Assembly: GCA_947174505.1 (NCBI GenBank)
Contig: CAMWJF010000001.1
Location: 124,001-188,000, forward strand
Length of the DNA stretch: 64,000 nt
Source of the DNA: an uncultured Lachnospiraceae bacterium
GTDB lineage: Bacteria > Bacillota > Clostridia > Lachnospirales > Lachnospiraceae
Direction of reading: 5' to 3'
Shown here piece after piece: positions 48,778-63,156 of this stretch; position 1 is the stretch's first letter; each line of letters begins with the position of its first letter. The position numbers and the translations under genes are program-made. A model generated the notes under the pieces. That model saw only the letters and a program-made list of their open reading frames with translations. It did not search any database and was not told the origin of the DNA.

Positions 48778-48792
48778 AACGGATATGGAACG

Positions 48793-48821
48793 TTGACTCT
48801 AAGGACATTTTAGATTATTAT
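48793..48821 (+). promoter_or_regulatory. Sigma-A-type promoter upstream of the G-tract gene
   Basis: TTGACT at 48793-48798, 17-base spacer, TATTAT at 48816-48821. A transcript would start near 48828 and give a leader of about 50 bases ahead of AGGAGG (48865-48870) and ATG 48881. This is one of the best promoter matches in the window and marks the start of region D. Confidence 0.6.
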
Positions 48822-48880
48822 TTATGTGTGCTGGCGGATTTATCAACAAGCTTTCACTTACCACAGGAGGTATGGTGTAG

Positions 48881-49441
48881 ATGCTGAAAATTCAAAATTT
48901 TCCAAAAAATATTGACACTCAGGTGTTACAATCATTTGTAATTGATGACAATCTGTTTCCCAGAATACAGGAATTTGTGCAAAAAAACCAAGTGGGAGAA
49001 GGCGCCTGCTTTTCAGTTTTAGACAAAACGGGAAAGCAGTTATTTTTAGTTACTTATTTGGAAGATTTGATCAAGGGGGCTAAACGAAAAAATCTTTCGG
49101 ATTATTTTGAAAGATTTAGCAATATTGATGATTTAGATTTCACATTACTGGATCGGTTTCAGAGTTTCCTTTTTCTGGAGGTGGATGATTATTCAGTTGC
49201 CGTTGCAAAATTGTTGCTGAAATATCGTCCGAATAGAAAGATTATTTTCGGGGATGTGAGAGCAAAGTATTTTTTTGAAGGAAGTAAAGTGAAATATTTA
49301 AGCAGCTTATATGGAGCAGGAAGGCATATGGAGCTGACGGAGAAGTGGATGAGGGGGGGGGGTGGAGAGAATATCCCTTTTGGATCGCATACGCGGTTTG
49401 ATTGGGTGGAAAGTATTGGGAATGCTGAGAAAGTGTGGTAG
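48881..49441 (+). CDS. N-terminal part of a G-tract-split glycosyltransferase gene (current frame ends early)
   Basis: 186 residues as sequenced. The first 157 look like a genuine domain (FLFLEVDDYSVAVAKLLLKY, KIIFGDVRAKYFFEG) that I cannot name. At codon 158 the frame enters a run of ten G residues (49353-49362); the tail afterwards (ENIPFGSHTRF ... KVW) looks like out-of-frame sequence. Removal of one G would join residue 160 directly to the open frame that begins at 49362, giving a single protein of about 519 residues ending at 50441. A/T-rich codon use unlike the preceding genes. Either a phase-variable OFF state or a sequencing error. Confidence 0.7.
   Translation: MLKIQNFPKNIDTQVLQSFVIDDNLFPRIQEFVQKNQVGEGACFSVLDKTGKQLFLVTYLEDLIKGAKRKNLSDYFERFSNIDDLDFTLLDRFQSFLFLEVDDYSVAVAKLLLKYRPNRKIIFGDVRAKYFFEGSKVKYLSSLYGAGRHMELTEKWMRGGGGENIPFGSHTRFDWVESIGNAEKVW
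49353..49362 (+). repeat. Homopolymeric G10 tract (candidate contingency tract)
   Basis: Ten consecutive G residues in an AT-rich coding region, the only G or C run of this length I saw in the window; other long runs are A or T of eight or fewer. It lies exactly where the frame of the 48881 gene would need to shift by one to continue into the 49362 gene. Confidence 0.85.
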
Positions 49442-50441
49442 CTGCTGTATAGTTAAGGCAGACAGGAGAAACCATCCGGGCGAGGAGGGGATGGTGTATA
49501 ATAGCCAGAATGTTGTATATAGTCTGATGTGGAAAAAAATGAAAAGATGTTTTGGCGGAAAAAATCCGAATAAAGAAATTCTGGTTATAGATTACCCCTG
49601 CGATAAAGAGGGACTGGGATCGATTGCAAAGTGTACCTTTACGCATATTATGTGGATGACAGGGCATGGATATATTCCGGTAATAAATCTGCATAATTAT
49701 CCGAATCAGTATCTGAATGATCCAGGTGAAAACATGTGGGAATATTTTTTTGATCCAGTTTCATCGGTGACGGTGGATGAAGCCTATGAAAGCAAACATG
49801 TCATCATTGCGACAGAAAGTGATATTTCCTGGCATGATGTCGAGATTAACCCGTACCAACGCGAATATATGAACCAATTGGCAGGTAATGCAGATTTTAG
49901 GAAGATTGTGAAATTCAATTCGGTAACGAGACAATATATTGATGCAAAGATGCCAAAAGAAATTCGGGAAGGGAAACGAGTTCTGGGCGTTGTTATGCGA
50001 GGGACAGATTTTCGGAAGGAAGTGGCAGTAAGGTATCATAAAGAGTGGCGGAAAGATGTTGTAGATCCGAACATTTTTTTGAAAGTTTGCAGTTACTATA
50101 AAGACGAATTAAAATGTGAATATATTTTTTTGGCGACAGAGGATGCAGAATATTTTGAAATGGCACAGAAGTTTTTTGGGGAGAAACTGTTATCTGTTGA
50201 ACAGAAAAGGACGGCTTATAATTTTGCGAATATGGAAAACATAAATTTAAATGAAGCTATGGGGCAGAAGGATGGAAGGACGGCGGGGAGAGATTATTTA
50301 GCTGTCATTCAAGGTCTGGTAGAGTGCAGTTCGTTAATTTATAACGTAAAGTGCGGCGCGGTTTGGCTGGCAGAGCTTTGGAAGCCGGATCAATATGAGT
50401 TGGTTCGATGTATTGATAAAAACTGGGAAAAGGAAATCTGA
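49362..50441 (+). CDS. Fucosyltransferase-like glycosyltransferase domain (3' part of split gene)
   Basis: Open frame of 359 residues from GTG 49362 at the end of the G tract; the frame upstream is closed by TGA at 49350-49352. An internal ATG at 49491 with AGGAGG just upstream could give 316 residues. EILVIDYPCDKEGLGS, VLGVVMRGTDFRKE near residue 207 and YIFLATEDAEYFEMAQKFF resemble the GT23/NodZ/O-fucosyltransferase superfamily, where the HxRxxD-like block (here VMRGTD) binds GDP-fucose. Most likely the catalytic part of the gene that starts at 48881. Confidence 0.7.
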   Translation: MERISLLDRIRGLIGWKVLGMLRKCGSCCIVKADRRNHPGEEGMVYNSQNVVYSLMWKKMKRCFGGKNPNKEILVIDYPCDKEGLGSIAKCTFTHIMWMTGHGYIPVINLHNYPNQYLNDPGENMWEYFFDPVSSVTVDEAYESKHVIIATESDISWHDVEINPYQREYMNQLAGNADFRKIVKFNSVTRQYIDAKMPKEIREGKRVLGVVMRGTDFRKEVAVRYHKEWRKDVVDPNIFLKVCSYYKDELKCEYIFLATEDAEYFEMAQKFFGEKLLSVEQKRTAYNFANMENINLNEAMGQKDGRTAGRDYLAVIQGLVECSSLIYNVKCGAVWLAELWKPDQYELVRCIDKNWEKEI

Positions 50442-50448
50442 TTATTGT

Positions 50449-50973
50449 ATGTTCGAACAAATCAAATATTTAGTTCTGGATGTTGACGGAACCATGACAG
50501 ACGCTGGCATATATTATGACAGTATGGGAAATGAAATTAAAAAGTTCTGCACGAGGGATGGTGTTGGGCTTGTGGCGGCAAGAAGGGCTGGAATAAAACT
50601 GATCGTGCTGACAGGACGTGAATGCCCGGCGACAACACGCCGGATGCAGGAAATGAAAATTGATTTTCTGTTTCAAAAGGTGGAAAATAAAAAAGACTTT
50701 TTGACAGAATTTATGGCAGGGAGAGACATTGCGAAAGATAACATGGGCTATATTGGTGATGACATTAATGATTATCCGGCCATGTCTCTGGCAGCTTTTG
50801 TTGGTTGTCCGAAGGATTCCTGCGAACAGGTCAAACAGGCAGCTTCTTATGTTAGTGATGTATGCGGCGGTGCAGGGGCGGTGCGTGATGTCATAGAATA
50901 TCTGTTGAAGCAGCGTGGAGAATGGGAAAGTGTAATCAGGGCCATGTATGGCGAATACGGGACAGGAGTGTAA
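50449..50973 (+). CDS. KdsC/YrbI-type HAD phosphatase
   Basis: 174 residues from ATG 50449; the frame is open back to 50395 inside the previous gene. LVLDVDGTMTDAGIYYDSMG holds the HAD nucleophile Asp, VRD-like TRDGVGLVAARRAGIKLIVLTGRE, KKDF and GYIGDDINDYPAM follow. This is the small cap-less tetramer family that removes phosphate from Kdo-8-P, and in other loci from nonulosonic-acid-9-phosphates or similar. It is followed 4 bases later by a CMP-sugar synthetase, so it probably dephosphorylates a sugar acid just before activation. Confidence 0.88.
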   Translation: MFEQIKYLVLDVDGTMTDAGIYYDSMGNEIKKFCTRDGVGLVAARRAGIKLIVLTGRECPATTRRMQEMKIDFLFQKVENKKDFLTEFMAGRDIAKDNMGYIGDDINDYPAMSLAAFVGCPKDSCEQVKQAASYVSDVCGGAGAVRDVIEYLLKQRGEWESVIRAMYGEYGTGV

Positions 50974-50977
50974 TTGT

Positions 50978-51643
50978 ATGAAAGTTGCCTTGTTTATTCC
51001 TATTAAATTAAATAATCAGAGGCTGCCGGGGAAAAATATTATGGATTTAGCTGGCAGACCCGTATGCGATTATTTATTTCAGACAGTAAGCCAGCTGAAA
51101 GAAATTGATGAGAGATATGTATATTGCAGTGATGAGGAAATAATTCCGTTTATACCGAGCGGAATCGAATTTCTCAAAAGAGATGAGAAGCTGGATGGTT
51201 ATGCGGTTAAAGGATTGGATATTATAGAAGCTTTTGTAAATGATATTGATGCGGATATTTATATTATTACGCATGTTACGCAGCCGTTTACTAAAGGAAA
51301 ATCAATTATGGAAGCCTTGGACAAGGTAAAAAGCGGAGCTTATGATTCTGCATTCAGCGCAGTAGAATTGCAGGATTATATGTGGTATCATGGGAAGCCT
51401 TTTAACTATGATATGAAGGATATTGTGAGGACTCAGGATTTGGAACCGATCTATATGGAGACAGGGGCTTTTTTCATATTTACTAAAAGAGTGTTTAAAG
51501 AGCTTCATCAAAGAATCGGGAACAACCCTTATATCTGTGTAATTGACCAGTTTGAAGCGATAGATATAGACACAAAAGAAGACTTTGCCCTTGCGGAAGC
51601 TGTAGCGGAATATATTAAAAAGAAAGGTAATCAGCATGATTAA
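50978..51643 (+). CDS. CMP-sugar-acid cytidylyltransferase (NeuA/KdsB-like), copy 1
   Basis: 221 residues from ATG 50978 (CAGGAG upstream). FIPIKLNNQRLPGKNIMDLAGRP replaces the NeuA consensus IPARGGSKGIPxKN, so it is a divergent member of the CMP-sialate/CMP-Kdo synthetase family; THVTQPFTKGKSI and the late FEAIDIDTKEDFALAE block are conserved. It would activate a sugar acid with CTP. Overlaps the next gene by 8 bases. The closely linked aldolase and phosphatase suggest that all three act on the same compound. Confidence 0.85.
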   Translation: MKVALFIPIKLNNQRLPGKNIMDLAGRPVCDYLFQTVSQLKEIDERYVYCSDEEIIPFIPSGIEFLKRDEKLDGYAVKGLDIIEAFVNDIDADIYIITHVTQPFTKGKSIMEALDKVKSGAYDSAFSAVELQDYMWYHGKPFNYDMKDIVRTQDLEPIYMETGAFFIFTKRVFKELHQRIGNNPYICVIDQFEAIDIDTKEDFALAEAVAEYIKKKGNQHD

Positions 51644-55920: not shown

Positions 55921-56985
55921 ATGAAAATTACCAGATGGTTTGAAGAGGGTGCTGCATGTAATGCAGTGTATATTATTGCAGAAGTGTCTCAGAATCATGA
56001 CGGCAGTCTGGGACAGGCTCATGCGTTTATTGACGCGGTGGCCGGCACGGGAGTCGATGCGATCAAATTCCAGACGCATATTGCAGAGGCGGAGAGTACG
56101 CCAGACGAGCCGTTTCGGGTCAAGTTCAGCTATGAGGACAAGACCAGGTATGATTACTGGAAAAGGATGGAATTTACGTTTGAACAGTGGGAAGGACTGT
56201 ATCGTCATGCACGGGAGGCGGGGCTTGATTTTCTAAGTTCTGTTTTTTCTGTAGAAGCATTTGAAATGATGCAGTCTATCGGAATGCCAGCGTGGAAGCT
56301 TGGTTCAGGAGAGGTTTTTAACAACTGTCTGGTAGATAAAATGGTAAAAACCGGAAAACCGATTCTATTATCCACAGGATTAAGTTCTTATGAGGACATT
56401 GACCGGCAGGTGGAGATGATAAAAACAAATCCATATGCGGTGATGCAATGTACGACGGCATATCCGTGCCCGCCGGAGAAGATCGGTTTAAATCTCGTTT
56501 CGGAAATGAGAGATAGATATAAATGTCCTATTGGACTCTCAGACCATTCCGGGACGATATTTCCGTCACTGGCGGCTGTAGCAAACGGTGCACTGATGAT
56601 AGAAGTGCATGTGACCATGAGTCCCTATATGTTCGGTCCCGATGTGAAGGCATCTGTGACTATAGAACAGCTCCGGGAAATGACAGAGGGCATTAGGATG
56701 ATTACCGCGATGCGGAATGCACCGGTTGATAAGACAGCATTGAATGAAGAGCAGAAGGAGTTAAAGCATATTTTTGCAAAAGGTATTTACCTGAAGCGGG
56801 ATGTCGCAAAGGGAGAGAAGCTCGAGCTGCAGGCTCTCTCCTTCAAAAAACCATTGACTGCCATCTCCGGGGAACATTATGAGGAGGTGCTGGGAAAAAG
56901 GCTGTTAAAGGACCTGAAAATGGGCGAGGCGTTGCGCTGGTCCGATTTGGAGGGCGGCAGAATAGAAAGGGGATACACGGTTTAG
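55921..56985 (+). CDS. NeuB/LegI-type nonulosonic acid synthase
   Basis: 354 residues. IIAEVSQNHDGSLGQAHAFI, AIKFQTHIAEAE near residue 49, KLGSGEVFNNCLVDKM, STGLSSYEDID, CTTAYPCPPEKIGLN and GLSDHSGTIFPSLAAVANGA are NeuB barrel motifs; a C-terminal antifreeze-like SAF domain (about 278-354, IYLKRDVAKGEKLELQALS) completes the usual architecture. The enzyme condenses phosphoenolpyruvate with ManNAc or a diacetamido-hexose to form sialic or legionaminic acid. The nearby PtmE-like gene favours the legionaminic route. The next gene starts 2 bases later. Confidence 0.92.
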   Translation: MKITRWFEEGAACNAVYIIAEVSQNHDGSLGQAHAFIDAVAGTGVDAIKFQTHIAEAESTPDEPFRVKFSYEDKTRYDYWKRMEFTFEQWEGLYRHAREAGLDFLSSVFSVEAFEMMQSIGMPAWKLGSGEVFNNCLVDKMVKTGKPILLSTGLSSYEDIDRQVEMIKTNPYAVMQCTTAYPCPPEKIGLNLVSEMRDRYKCPIGLSDHSGTIFPSLAAVANGALMIEVHVTMSPYMFGPDVKASVTIEQLREMTEGIRMITAMRNAPVDKTALNEEQKELKHIFAKGIYLKRDVAKGEKLELQALSFKKPLTAISGEHYEEVLGKRLLKDLKMGEALRWSDLEGGRIERGYTV

Positions 56986-58138: not shown

Positions 58139-58177
58139 AAAGGCGGTATTGCTCGGGACAGGATTGGGGTGAGGCGT

Positions 58178-58888
58178 ATGAAAAAGAGGCTGGCAATTAT
58201 TCCCGCAAGGGGAGGCTCGAAAGGAATTCCGAAAAAGAATATATACAATGTGGCGGGACATCCGTTGATTTATTACACGATTCTGGCAGCCAAAGAGGCG
58301 AAAGAGGCTGGGGCAGTTGACCAGGTGATTGTATCGACGGATTCGGAGGAGATTGCCGCTATTGCGAAGGAATGTGGCGCAGAGGTTCCGTTTATCCGGC
58401 CTGCCGCGCTTTCCTCCGACCAGTCGAAAAGTGCGGATCTGATGATCCATGCGGTGGACTTCTATCGGGAGCGGGGCGAATATTACGACGATATCGTTTT
58501 ATTGCAGCCAACCTCGCCACTCAGAAAAGGGGAAGACATTATCGGCGCGGTTGCGCTGTATGACAGCAGACAGGGAACATCTCTGGTAAGCTGTTACAGG
58601 GAAGAGAGTGTCAGCGAGTACAATGCCTACCACAGGAAAGATGATATGGGGATTGCGCTGCATCCGGATCACAACAAAGGGAAAAGGAGACAGGATCTGC
58701 CGGAGCTGTATGTGAGAAACGGAGCTGTTTTTATTACGGATGTGGAGTATCTGCGAACATCCAGACTGGTAATCAGTGAAGAACCCGTCATATATGTAAT
58801 GCCTGTGGAGCGCTCTATAAATATTGATACCCGGTACGATATGGAGCTGACGGAGTGGCTGATGGAGAGGGAGTCGAATGGAAAATAA
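58178..58888 (+). CDS. CMP-nonulosonate cytidylyltransferase (NeuA-like), copy 2
   Basis: 236 residues from ATG 58178 (GGGTGAGG upstream; GTG 58169 is possible). LAIIPARGGSKGIPKKNIY is the full NeuA nucleotide-binding loop; VIVSTDSEEIAAIAKECGAE, FIRPAALSSDQS, LLQPTSPLRKGEDI and ERSINIDTRYDME complete the family blocks. It links CMP to a nonulosonic acid. RRQDLPELYVRNGAVFI is characteristic of the PtmB/LegF and NeuA branch. The stop overlaps the start of the next gene by 11 bases. Confidence 0.92.
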   Translation: MKKRLAIIPARGGSKGIPKKNIYNVAGHPLIYYTILAAKEAKEAGAVDQVIVSTDSEEIAAIAKECGAEVPFIRPAALSSDQSKSADLMIHAVDFYRERGEYYDDIVLLQPTSPLRKGEDIIGAVALYDSRQGTSLVSCYREESVSEYNAYHRKDDMGIALHPDHNKGKRRQDLPELYVRNGAVFITDVEYLRTSRLVISEEPVIYVMPVERSINIDTRYDMELTEWLMERESNGK

Positions 58889-62439: not shown

Positions 62440-62478
62440 TCCTGGCTTACAGATAATATAGTTTTGGGGAAAAGACGG

Positions 62479-63156
62479 ATGGGAAATATTGCGGTTATAA
62501 CTGCCAGAAGCGGCTCTAAAGGGCTGCCTGACAAAAATATAAGAGAGCTCTGCGGTAAGCCGCTGCTGGCTTACTCCGTGGAGTGTGCTTTACAGAGCGG
62601 ATGCTTTGACAAGGTTTTTGTTTCTACGGATTCATCGGAGTATGCGGAAATTGCAGAGAGTTTTGGGGCGGATGCTTCTTTTCTCAGATCGGAAGAGACC
62701 GCAGGAGATACAGCCGGTTCCTGGGATGCAGTCAGGGAAGTAATATATAAATTTGAAGAGCAGGGTGAAATTTTTGACTGTGTTATGCTCTTGCAGCCAA
62801 CCTCTCCTCTGAGAAATGTATCCGATATCAGAAACAGTTTTGCGCTGATGGAAGAAAAGGGCGCAAACTCGGTGGTGTCCGTGTGTGAAATGGAACATTC
62901 TCCGTTGTGGAGCAATACGCTTGGAGAGGATCTGTGCATGGATCAGTTCAGACAGGGAAATTACTGTAAAGTGAGAAGGCAGGATCTTCCCAAATATTAC
63001 AGGCTTAACGGAGCGGTTTTTTTGGTCACGCGTAAGGAGCTGGAGCAGCCTGAGATGTTCGAACATAAAAGCTATGCATATATTATGCCAACAGAGAGAT
63101 CCATTGATATAGATACGGAATTTGATTTTAAGGTGGCGGAATGCTTTATGCAGTGA
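62479..63156 (+). CDS. CMP-nonulosonate cytidylyltransferase (NeuA/PtmB-like), copy 3
   Basis: 225 residues from ATG 62479 (GGGGA upstream; TTG 62464 is possible). IAVITARSGSKGLPDKNIRE is the CTP-binding loop, KVFVSTDSSEYAEIAESFGAD, MLLQPTSPLRNVSDI, KVRRQDLPKYYRLNGAVFL and ERSIDIDTEFDFK follow. The gene order NeuB, NeuC, PtmE-like, NeuA-like recalls neuB2-neuC2-ptmE-ptmF-ptmB, so this copy is the best candidate for the legionaminic-acid-specific synthetase. It is one of three CMP-sugar synthetases within 12.5 kb. Confidence 0.92.
   Translation: MGNIAVITARSGSKGLPDKNIRELCGKPLLAYSVECALQSGCFDKVFVSTDSSEYAEIAESFGADASFLRSEETAGDTAGSWDAVREVIYKFEEQGEIFDCVMLLQPTSPLRNVSDIRNSFALMEEKGANSVVSVCEMEHSPLWSNTLGEDLCMDQFRQGNYCKVRRQDLPKYYRLNGAVFLVTRKELEQPEMFEHKSYAYIMPTERSIDIDTEFDFKVAECFMQ

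Follow-up and report, generated by a model that had tools for sequence, protein, structure and literature searches.

In a 64,000-nucleotide stretch of DNA from an uncultured Lachnospiraceae bacterium (the window), a gene that appears to encode a glycosyltransferase is divided between two reading frames at a run of ten guanines. Is this gene decaying, wrongly assembled, or controlled by a tract whose length changes the reading frame? The initial annotation favored a candidate phase-variable switch. The features that bear on the question are:

48793..48821, + strand: sigma-A-type promoter match TTGACT-17-TATTAT upstream of the split gene; a similar stretch occurs in the relatives' loci L048 and L050
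48881..49441, + strand: first frame (186 aa), the enzyme's N-terminal domain, which exits the family frame at the tract
49353..49362, + strand: G10 homopolymer, presumed slippage tract, one of about 24 tracts of at least nine Gs in the genome
49362..50441, + strand: second frame (359 aa), the remainder of the enzyme, including the match to a NodZ/FUT8-like catalytic domain
49483..49496, + strand: AGGAGG followed by ATG (49491) and GTG (49494), a weak candidate for internal initiation
50395..50973, + strand: HAD hydrolase (PF08282), the next gene on the same strand
50948..51643, + strand: cytidylyltransferase (PF02348) of a presumed nonulosonate-type cluster
55921..56985, + strand: NeuB-type synthase (PF03102, SAF) of the same presumed cluster

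The G10 run (49353-49362) is bordered by A on one side and T on the other and is the sole G10 of the window. The ORFs at 48881-49441 and 49362-50441 are in different frames and their junction falls within the tract, so both coordinates and frames confirm that the G10 lies exactly at their meeting point, as first described. Tract length would set the reading frame of this gene; in the assembled state, the first frame reaches a stop about 25 codons past the tract. Both halves are open and conserved relative to homologs, with no further stop in either: the N-terminal piece shares 70% identity with L050 and the second piece 75% with genome G044. Describing the DNA as AT-rich suits the local block (40% GC) but is loose for the window, whose 4-kb blocks range from 39 to 55% GC. 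Among 100 dinucleotide shuffles of the window, 27 contained a G10 (mean 0.42), and therefore a lone tract in the window is unremarkable by that control.

The designation “glycosyltransferase” proved right by fold. In a structure model of an intact homolog, the C-terminal domain has a fold like that of NodZ/FUT8 fucosyltransferases, with the match beginning at about residue 226, and the model shows the GT-B fold of NodZ/FUT8-type (GT23) fucosyltransferases. We do not file the enzyme as a GT23 member, and say that by fold it resembles a NodZ/FUT8-type fucosyltransferase. Identification by sequence family gave no result: neither window piece had a Pfam match at 0.001, nor did any of eight alignment members at E 1, and NCBIfam and PDB sequence searches yielded chance-level rows only. 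For the N-terminal domain model (pLDDT 72), the best Foldseek E was 0.016, mostly to IMP dehydrogenase rows, with no usable identity.

Upstream of the split gene are a group 1 glycosyltransferase and an asparagine-synthase-like gene. Downstream are the HAD hydrolase, three cytidylyltransferases, an HMGL-like gene and NeuB, and further genes for a UDP-GlcNAc 2-epimerase, a nucleotidyltransferase and a radical SAM enzyme. From the roles of NeuB and the CMP-sugar pathway, we take this to be a nonulosonate-type surface-glycan cluster. The cytidylyltransferase genes are at 50948-51643, 58169-58888 and 62464-63156, with NeuB between the first two, and the window contains two UDP-GlcNAc 2-epimerase genes.

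The promoter placed at 48793 is present as a match (TTGACT, 17 nt, TATTAT), at a local frequency no higher than in shuffled sequence: five promoter-type matches occur in the 2 kb around it versus a shuffle mean of 4.9. Its spacer lacks a G tract, so it is unlike the porA/fetA-type layout considered below. The stretch 48780-48840 is similar to its counterparts in L048 and L050, and many of the differences fall at every third base, as though a short peptide (NVDSxDxLDYYLxV) were coded. It was also suggested that an ATG at 49491 could give a catalytic domain without the N-terminal domain. The AGGAGG ahead of it is real. The fold match begins past this ATG, at about residue 226 of the model; therefore, a separate catalytic domain could be made. 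However, the spacing is poor (2 nt to ATG 49491 and 5 nt to GTG 49494) and the AGGAGG is not conserved, as the aligned bases of L048 are GAGAGGAAGG and both L049 and L050 encode other residues at this position. Production of the catalytic domain from an internal start is thus only partly supported.

A search of relatives with the second piece returned nine loci: two distant ones (26% identity) and seven close ones, which share 50-75% identity and come from six genomes. The close relatives are MGBC000131.1, UBA7143, UBA3282, SRR15730520_bin.22, 1xD42-87 and one uncultured genome with two copies; their labels read Lachnospiraceae, except for strain 1xD42-87, which is labeled only as a bacterium. 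Relatives encode a fused gene of about 520 residues, matching the homolog of about 519 residues that the initial annotation had anticipated. Four copies (L049, L050, L053 and L054) have one open frame across the region, with ordinary codons at the position of the window's tract (for example, EEWMRGTGNAAFLDRIRAFIGWK in L050) and no run of at least seven Gs at the locus. Two separate genes are thus rejected, and the objection that relatives always carry two genes fails. In combination with the fucosyltransferase fold, the fused relatives support the view that this glycosyltransferase gene contains a candidate phase-variable switch.

The other three of the seven close copies (L048, L051 and L052) contain long G runs, all at positions other than that in the window; no second copy of the window's own tract turned up. 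In detail, L048 has a G12, in frame, about 35 codons ahead of the window's tract position, and a shortened N-terminal domain. In L051, a G11 follows about 20 codons after the MIKI start and is not in frame with the remainder; the frame opened by that start terminates at the tract (MIKIVNCPQYLSNMTNLKKRGGG-stop). The on/off state of L051 is not certain because another upstream ATG lies in the open frame. L052 has a G10 directly ahead of a GTG start, where L053 has G5. These two share 99.78% identity over 5,000 bp, with six mismatches and one 5-base indel, which is the G10 versus G5 difference. About 0.07 long runs were expected in seven genes, giving P(≥3) of ~6e-5, a value that assumes 25 tracts per 4 Mb and independent copies, although L052 and L053 are not independent. 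Across our genus sample of 77 genomes, 26 have a match to the gene at E 1e-10; a copy with >50% identity occurs in only six of the 77 (its own genome included), and the other matches are at ~24-32%.

The genome that contains the window (G000; 4,259,435 bases, 151 contigs, 94.1% complete) has about 24 tracts of at least nine Gs. Outside contig-end junk, the exact runs are two G8, five G9, 14 G10 and five G11-G12. Expected numbers were obtained by log-linear extrapolation of run lengths from 189 kb of this genome, where G4 to G7 occur 743, 141, 13 and 1 times, respectively, in stretches that had been chosen around tracts. The extrapolation gives 10.5 G8, 1.7 G9, 0.29 G10 and 0.05 G11 runs genome-wide, so that G8 is below and G9-G11 are above expectation. 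Homopolymers long enough to slip thus exceed chance in the genome, with a peak at G10 and few G7-G8, and do not exceed it in the window shuffle. Chance is rejected as an explanation at genome and genus scale, not for the window alone. A scarcity of G7-G8 with a peak at G10 is what kept slippage tracts would look like. This G9-G12 class, together with the G runs elsewhere in relatives' copies, adds further support to the proposed switch.

By our own classification, 12 of the 24 tracts are coding and 12 non-coding. Nine of the coding tracts are read through and three break the frame: that of the window gene and those at L014 and L003. The G10 at L014:3001-3010 (G000:C18:30328-30337) has 138 aa before it and 1,004 aa after it in another frame, and the later part has Laminin-G-like and Ig-like domains. 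The G9 at L003:3001-3009 (G000:C3:130729-130737) separates open stretches of 152 and 137 aa in different frames and is possibly a third split gene. The two stretches lie directly before a 376-aa ORF. A scan of ten genes at or after tracts found DUF285/BspA-type LRR in two, nothing in two, and one each of CBM27, Laminin-G/Ig-like, an acyltransferase, a PAPS-reductase domain, a CotH protein and a YfhO-type membrane protein. Judged by eye, the flanks vary from one tract to another, which speaks against a mobile element or repeat family as carrier of the tract.

Poly-G runs at contig ends (G000:C6:1-89, C13:76944-77022 and C29:1-54) are probably a sequencing artifact, which we presume reflects two-color sequencing chemistry, and our counts leave them out. 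The counts retain a G12 on C12, 47 bases from a contig end, which may itself be junk; of the two G8 runs, one is ~56 bases from such an end. In all, four of the 24 tracts are less than 100 bp away from the end of a contig versus 0.17 expected, an excess that can mean mixed lengths or sequencing trouble.

Several non-coding tracts (L004, L008, L010 and L020) end exactly at a -10-like box. A loose pattern for this arrangement (TTG...G9-TAnnnT) has 101 matches in 49 of the 77 genus genomes, versus seven for the reversed pattern. A strict pattern (TTGACA, gap 3-25, G8, TAnnnT) identified 63 sites, spread over 34 of the 77 genus genomes; the 394 other genomes of the family have 44 sites, in 34 of them. 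The reversed control had no match in either set. Exact G10 runs occur in 64 of 77 genus genomes and in 116 of 394 other family genomes. Based on the G10 and strict-site counts, the layout is scattered through the family and enriched in this genus. An exact G10 is absent from 13 of the 77 genus genomes and a strict site from 43. Runs of at least eight Gs number only five in G077 (the genome of L052) versus 39 in G009, and therefore the tract class is patchy or has been lost in some assemblies. In other genera of the family, G222, G349, G359 and G272 have 8-19 exact G10 runs per genome and most genomes have none, and a site in G338, also outside the genus, has a 28-nt spacer with ~21 Gs.

We took the spacer distribution from the strict pattern because the loose pattern limits the spacer to about 19 nt. 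All 63 genus spacers are 12-20 nt long, though the pattern permitted far longer ones: 12 (two sites), 13 (one), 14 (two), 16 (10), 17 (six), 18 (seven), 19 (33) and 20 (two). The main peak is at 19 and a lower one at 16, with fewer sites at 17-18. At these 63 sites, a homopolymer lies between predicted -35 and -10 elements, as in the porA/fetA-type layout. The mode of 19 is above the textbook spacer of 17 and above the usual spacing of the 12 tract-free exact TTGACA/TATAAT pairs found in 425,835 bases (16, two; 17, two; 18, six; 20, one; 23, one).

Homologous genes in different species keep the tract promoter and its flanks while tract and spacer vary. Spacers range from 16 to 19 among L060/L083/L088/L096/L100/L101, and the tracts of L064/L094/L112 are G9, G9 and G10. 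L065/L066/L068/L097 have G10, G11, G10 and G10 with the same TTGACAGAAGGCA and TAAAGT. Two sets, L067/L069/L095/L113 and L127/L133/L139/L143, have a single length throughout (all G9).

From the sites of the loose and strict patterns we read 105, leaving out L086 (G055:C37), G039:C84 and G066:C89. An ORF of at least 80 aa starts within 260 nt of 98 of these sites, and the remaining seven have none. Many of the ORFs look secreted: a crude signal-peptide feature was detected in 63 of the 98 versus 10 of 94 control ORFs, which came from the window and L048-L054 and were picked by another rule than the promoter set. Of ten downstream ORFs scanned with Pfam, six had no match, three had DUF285 or LRR and one encodes an ABC permease.

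We consider it very probable that the G10 is a contingency tract and part of a genus-wide poly-G system in gut commensals, acting on translation here and on transcription elsewhere. The tract would be part of the coding region for a glycosyltransferase with two domains and a NodZ/FUT8 fold, and this gene appears to stand at the head of a nonulosonate-type surface-glycan cluster. Replication slippage would alter tract length and so the reading frame, such that a single cell would make either the whole enzyme or a product that stops about 25 codons past the tract; the copy that was sequenced is in the broken state. The approximately two dozen G9-G12 tracts would include many in surface or glycan genes, or in the -35/-10 spacers of promoters for large secreted proteins, and these other genes would be switched via promoter spacing. 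The population would thereby become a mosaic of surface types. From the DNA we infer slippage in living cells, its rate and its reversibility, and an effect of spacer length on transcription and of the tracts on expression. The benefit may lie in evading phage or antibodies (immune escape) or in adaptation to mucus.

A one-off indel in a G run of a decaying pseudogene, with no reversion, would also leave the sequenced copy broken, and the limited spread of the gene (26 of 77 genomes at E 1e-10, six with >50% identity) suggests that it is dispensable in the genus. Yet both halves are open and conserved (75% to G044 and 70% to L050) with no other stop, the break coincides exactly with a member of the G9-G12 tract class, and three of seven relatives have tracts at other positions, and we regard such decay as improbable. 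It is still harder to credit that the tract is misassembled or missequenced, with a true length that differs and keeps the frame. Poly-G junk does occur at contig ends of this assembly, and in the excerpt available from a Bifidobacterium study, measured tract lengths could differ from annotated ones (PMC9187656). The G10, however, lies ~36 kb inside a contig of 209,684 bases, runs of exactly ten Gs are found in 64 of the 77 genus genomes, and a wrongly reported length would still leave the tract and its class standing.

Slippage at long homopolymers can also happen in RNA. If RNA polymerase or ribosomes slipped on the G run, every cell could make some full-length enzyme, with no heritable switch. 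This would leave unexplained both the G runs in promoter spacers and the length differences between near-identical DNAs, and we give it little chance. Returning to the contingency-tract reading, we think it likely that the genus uses poly-G slippage as its main phase-variation system, with many surface genes under independent, random control and a phasome about as large as those of mucosal pathogens. This system would typically combine the stereotyped promoter TTGACA-(7-10 nt)-G9-11-TAnnnT with in-frame tracts, and its targets would be large LRR/Ig-like/lectin-like secreted proteins, lipoproteins and glycan enzymes.

In the excerpts on which this comparison draws, homopolymer length changes alter frame or promoter spacing in Neisseria, Campylobacter and Bifidobacterium (PMC5320596, PMC6437147, PMC9187656). 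A G run inside a surface-glycan transferase gene, cgtB of Campylobacter jejuni, sets the frame (PMC6437147), and a title cited in PMC5320596 points to the same arrangement in the gonococcal lgt genes, likewise poly-G contingency genes of glycosyltransferases. As presented in those excerpts, both are like the window gene in having a frame-setting G run within such a gene. The window gene differs in its Gram-positive gut family, its NodZ/FUT8-like fold and the placement of the tract between the protein's two domains, and its variation in cells is a prediction from the sequence. For porA and fetA of Neisseria, the same excerpt places a homopolymer between -35 and -10, and it gives three transcriptionally phase-variable genes for one gonococcal strain (PMC5320596), whereas here we see a stereotyped class, with G8-G11 abutting the -10 box at 63 TTGACA sites in 77 genus genomes.

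A G tract splits a pilus surface gene in Bifidobacterium breve, and several tract lengths were measured in the population, according to the excerpt (PMC9187656). The likeness, on that account, is of a gut commensal with a surface gene split by a G tract, but the same account gives one or two pilus clusters per genome, whereas here there are about two dozen tracts and promoters are included. Bifidobacterium belongs to another phylum. Invertible promoters (invertons), such as those of the Akkermansia capsule, are described in part of another report as switching surface genes randomly in commensals (PMC13343947); these act by site-specific inversion, in contrast to homopolymer length here. That part also raises slip-strand mispairing at a mononucleotide repeat as a possibility for an Akkermansia capsule acyltransferase gene (PMC13343947), and therefore the idea is not foreign to gut commensals.

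Among the matches listed from open-licence literature (preprints excluded), we found no report of phase variation by homopolymers in Lachnospiraceae. Mucosal pathogens are already known to have poly-G contingency genes and spacer-tract promoters, and Bifidobacterium a G-tract pilus switch. New are the host group, the scale, the stereotyped promoter with a G run next to the -10 box, and a gene family for NodZ/FUT8-fold transferases whose tracts lie at differing positions in different relatives. The G run that repeatedly abuts the -10 box is a natural series for promoter output versus spacer length, and a commensal genus whose genomes have as many as two dozen tracts each is a testable system. 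If our reading is true, some annotated “split” genes may be live, and each reference genome from these bacteria would capture just one surface state, an arbitrary one.
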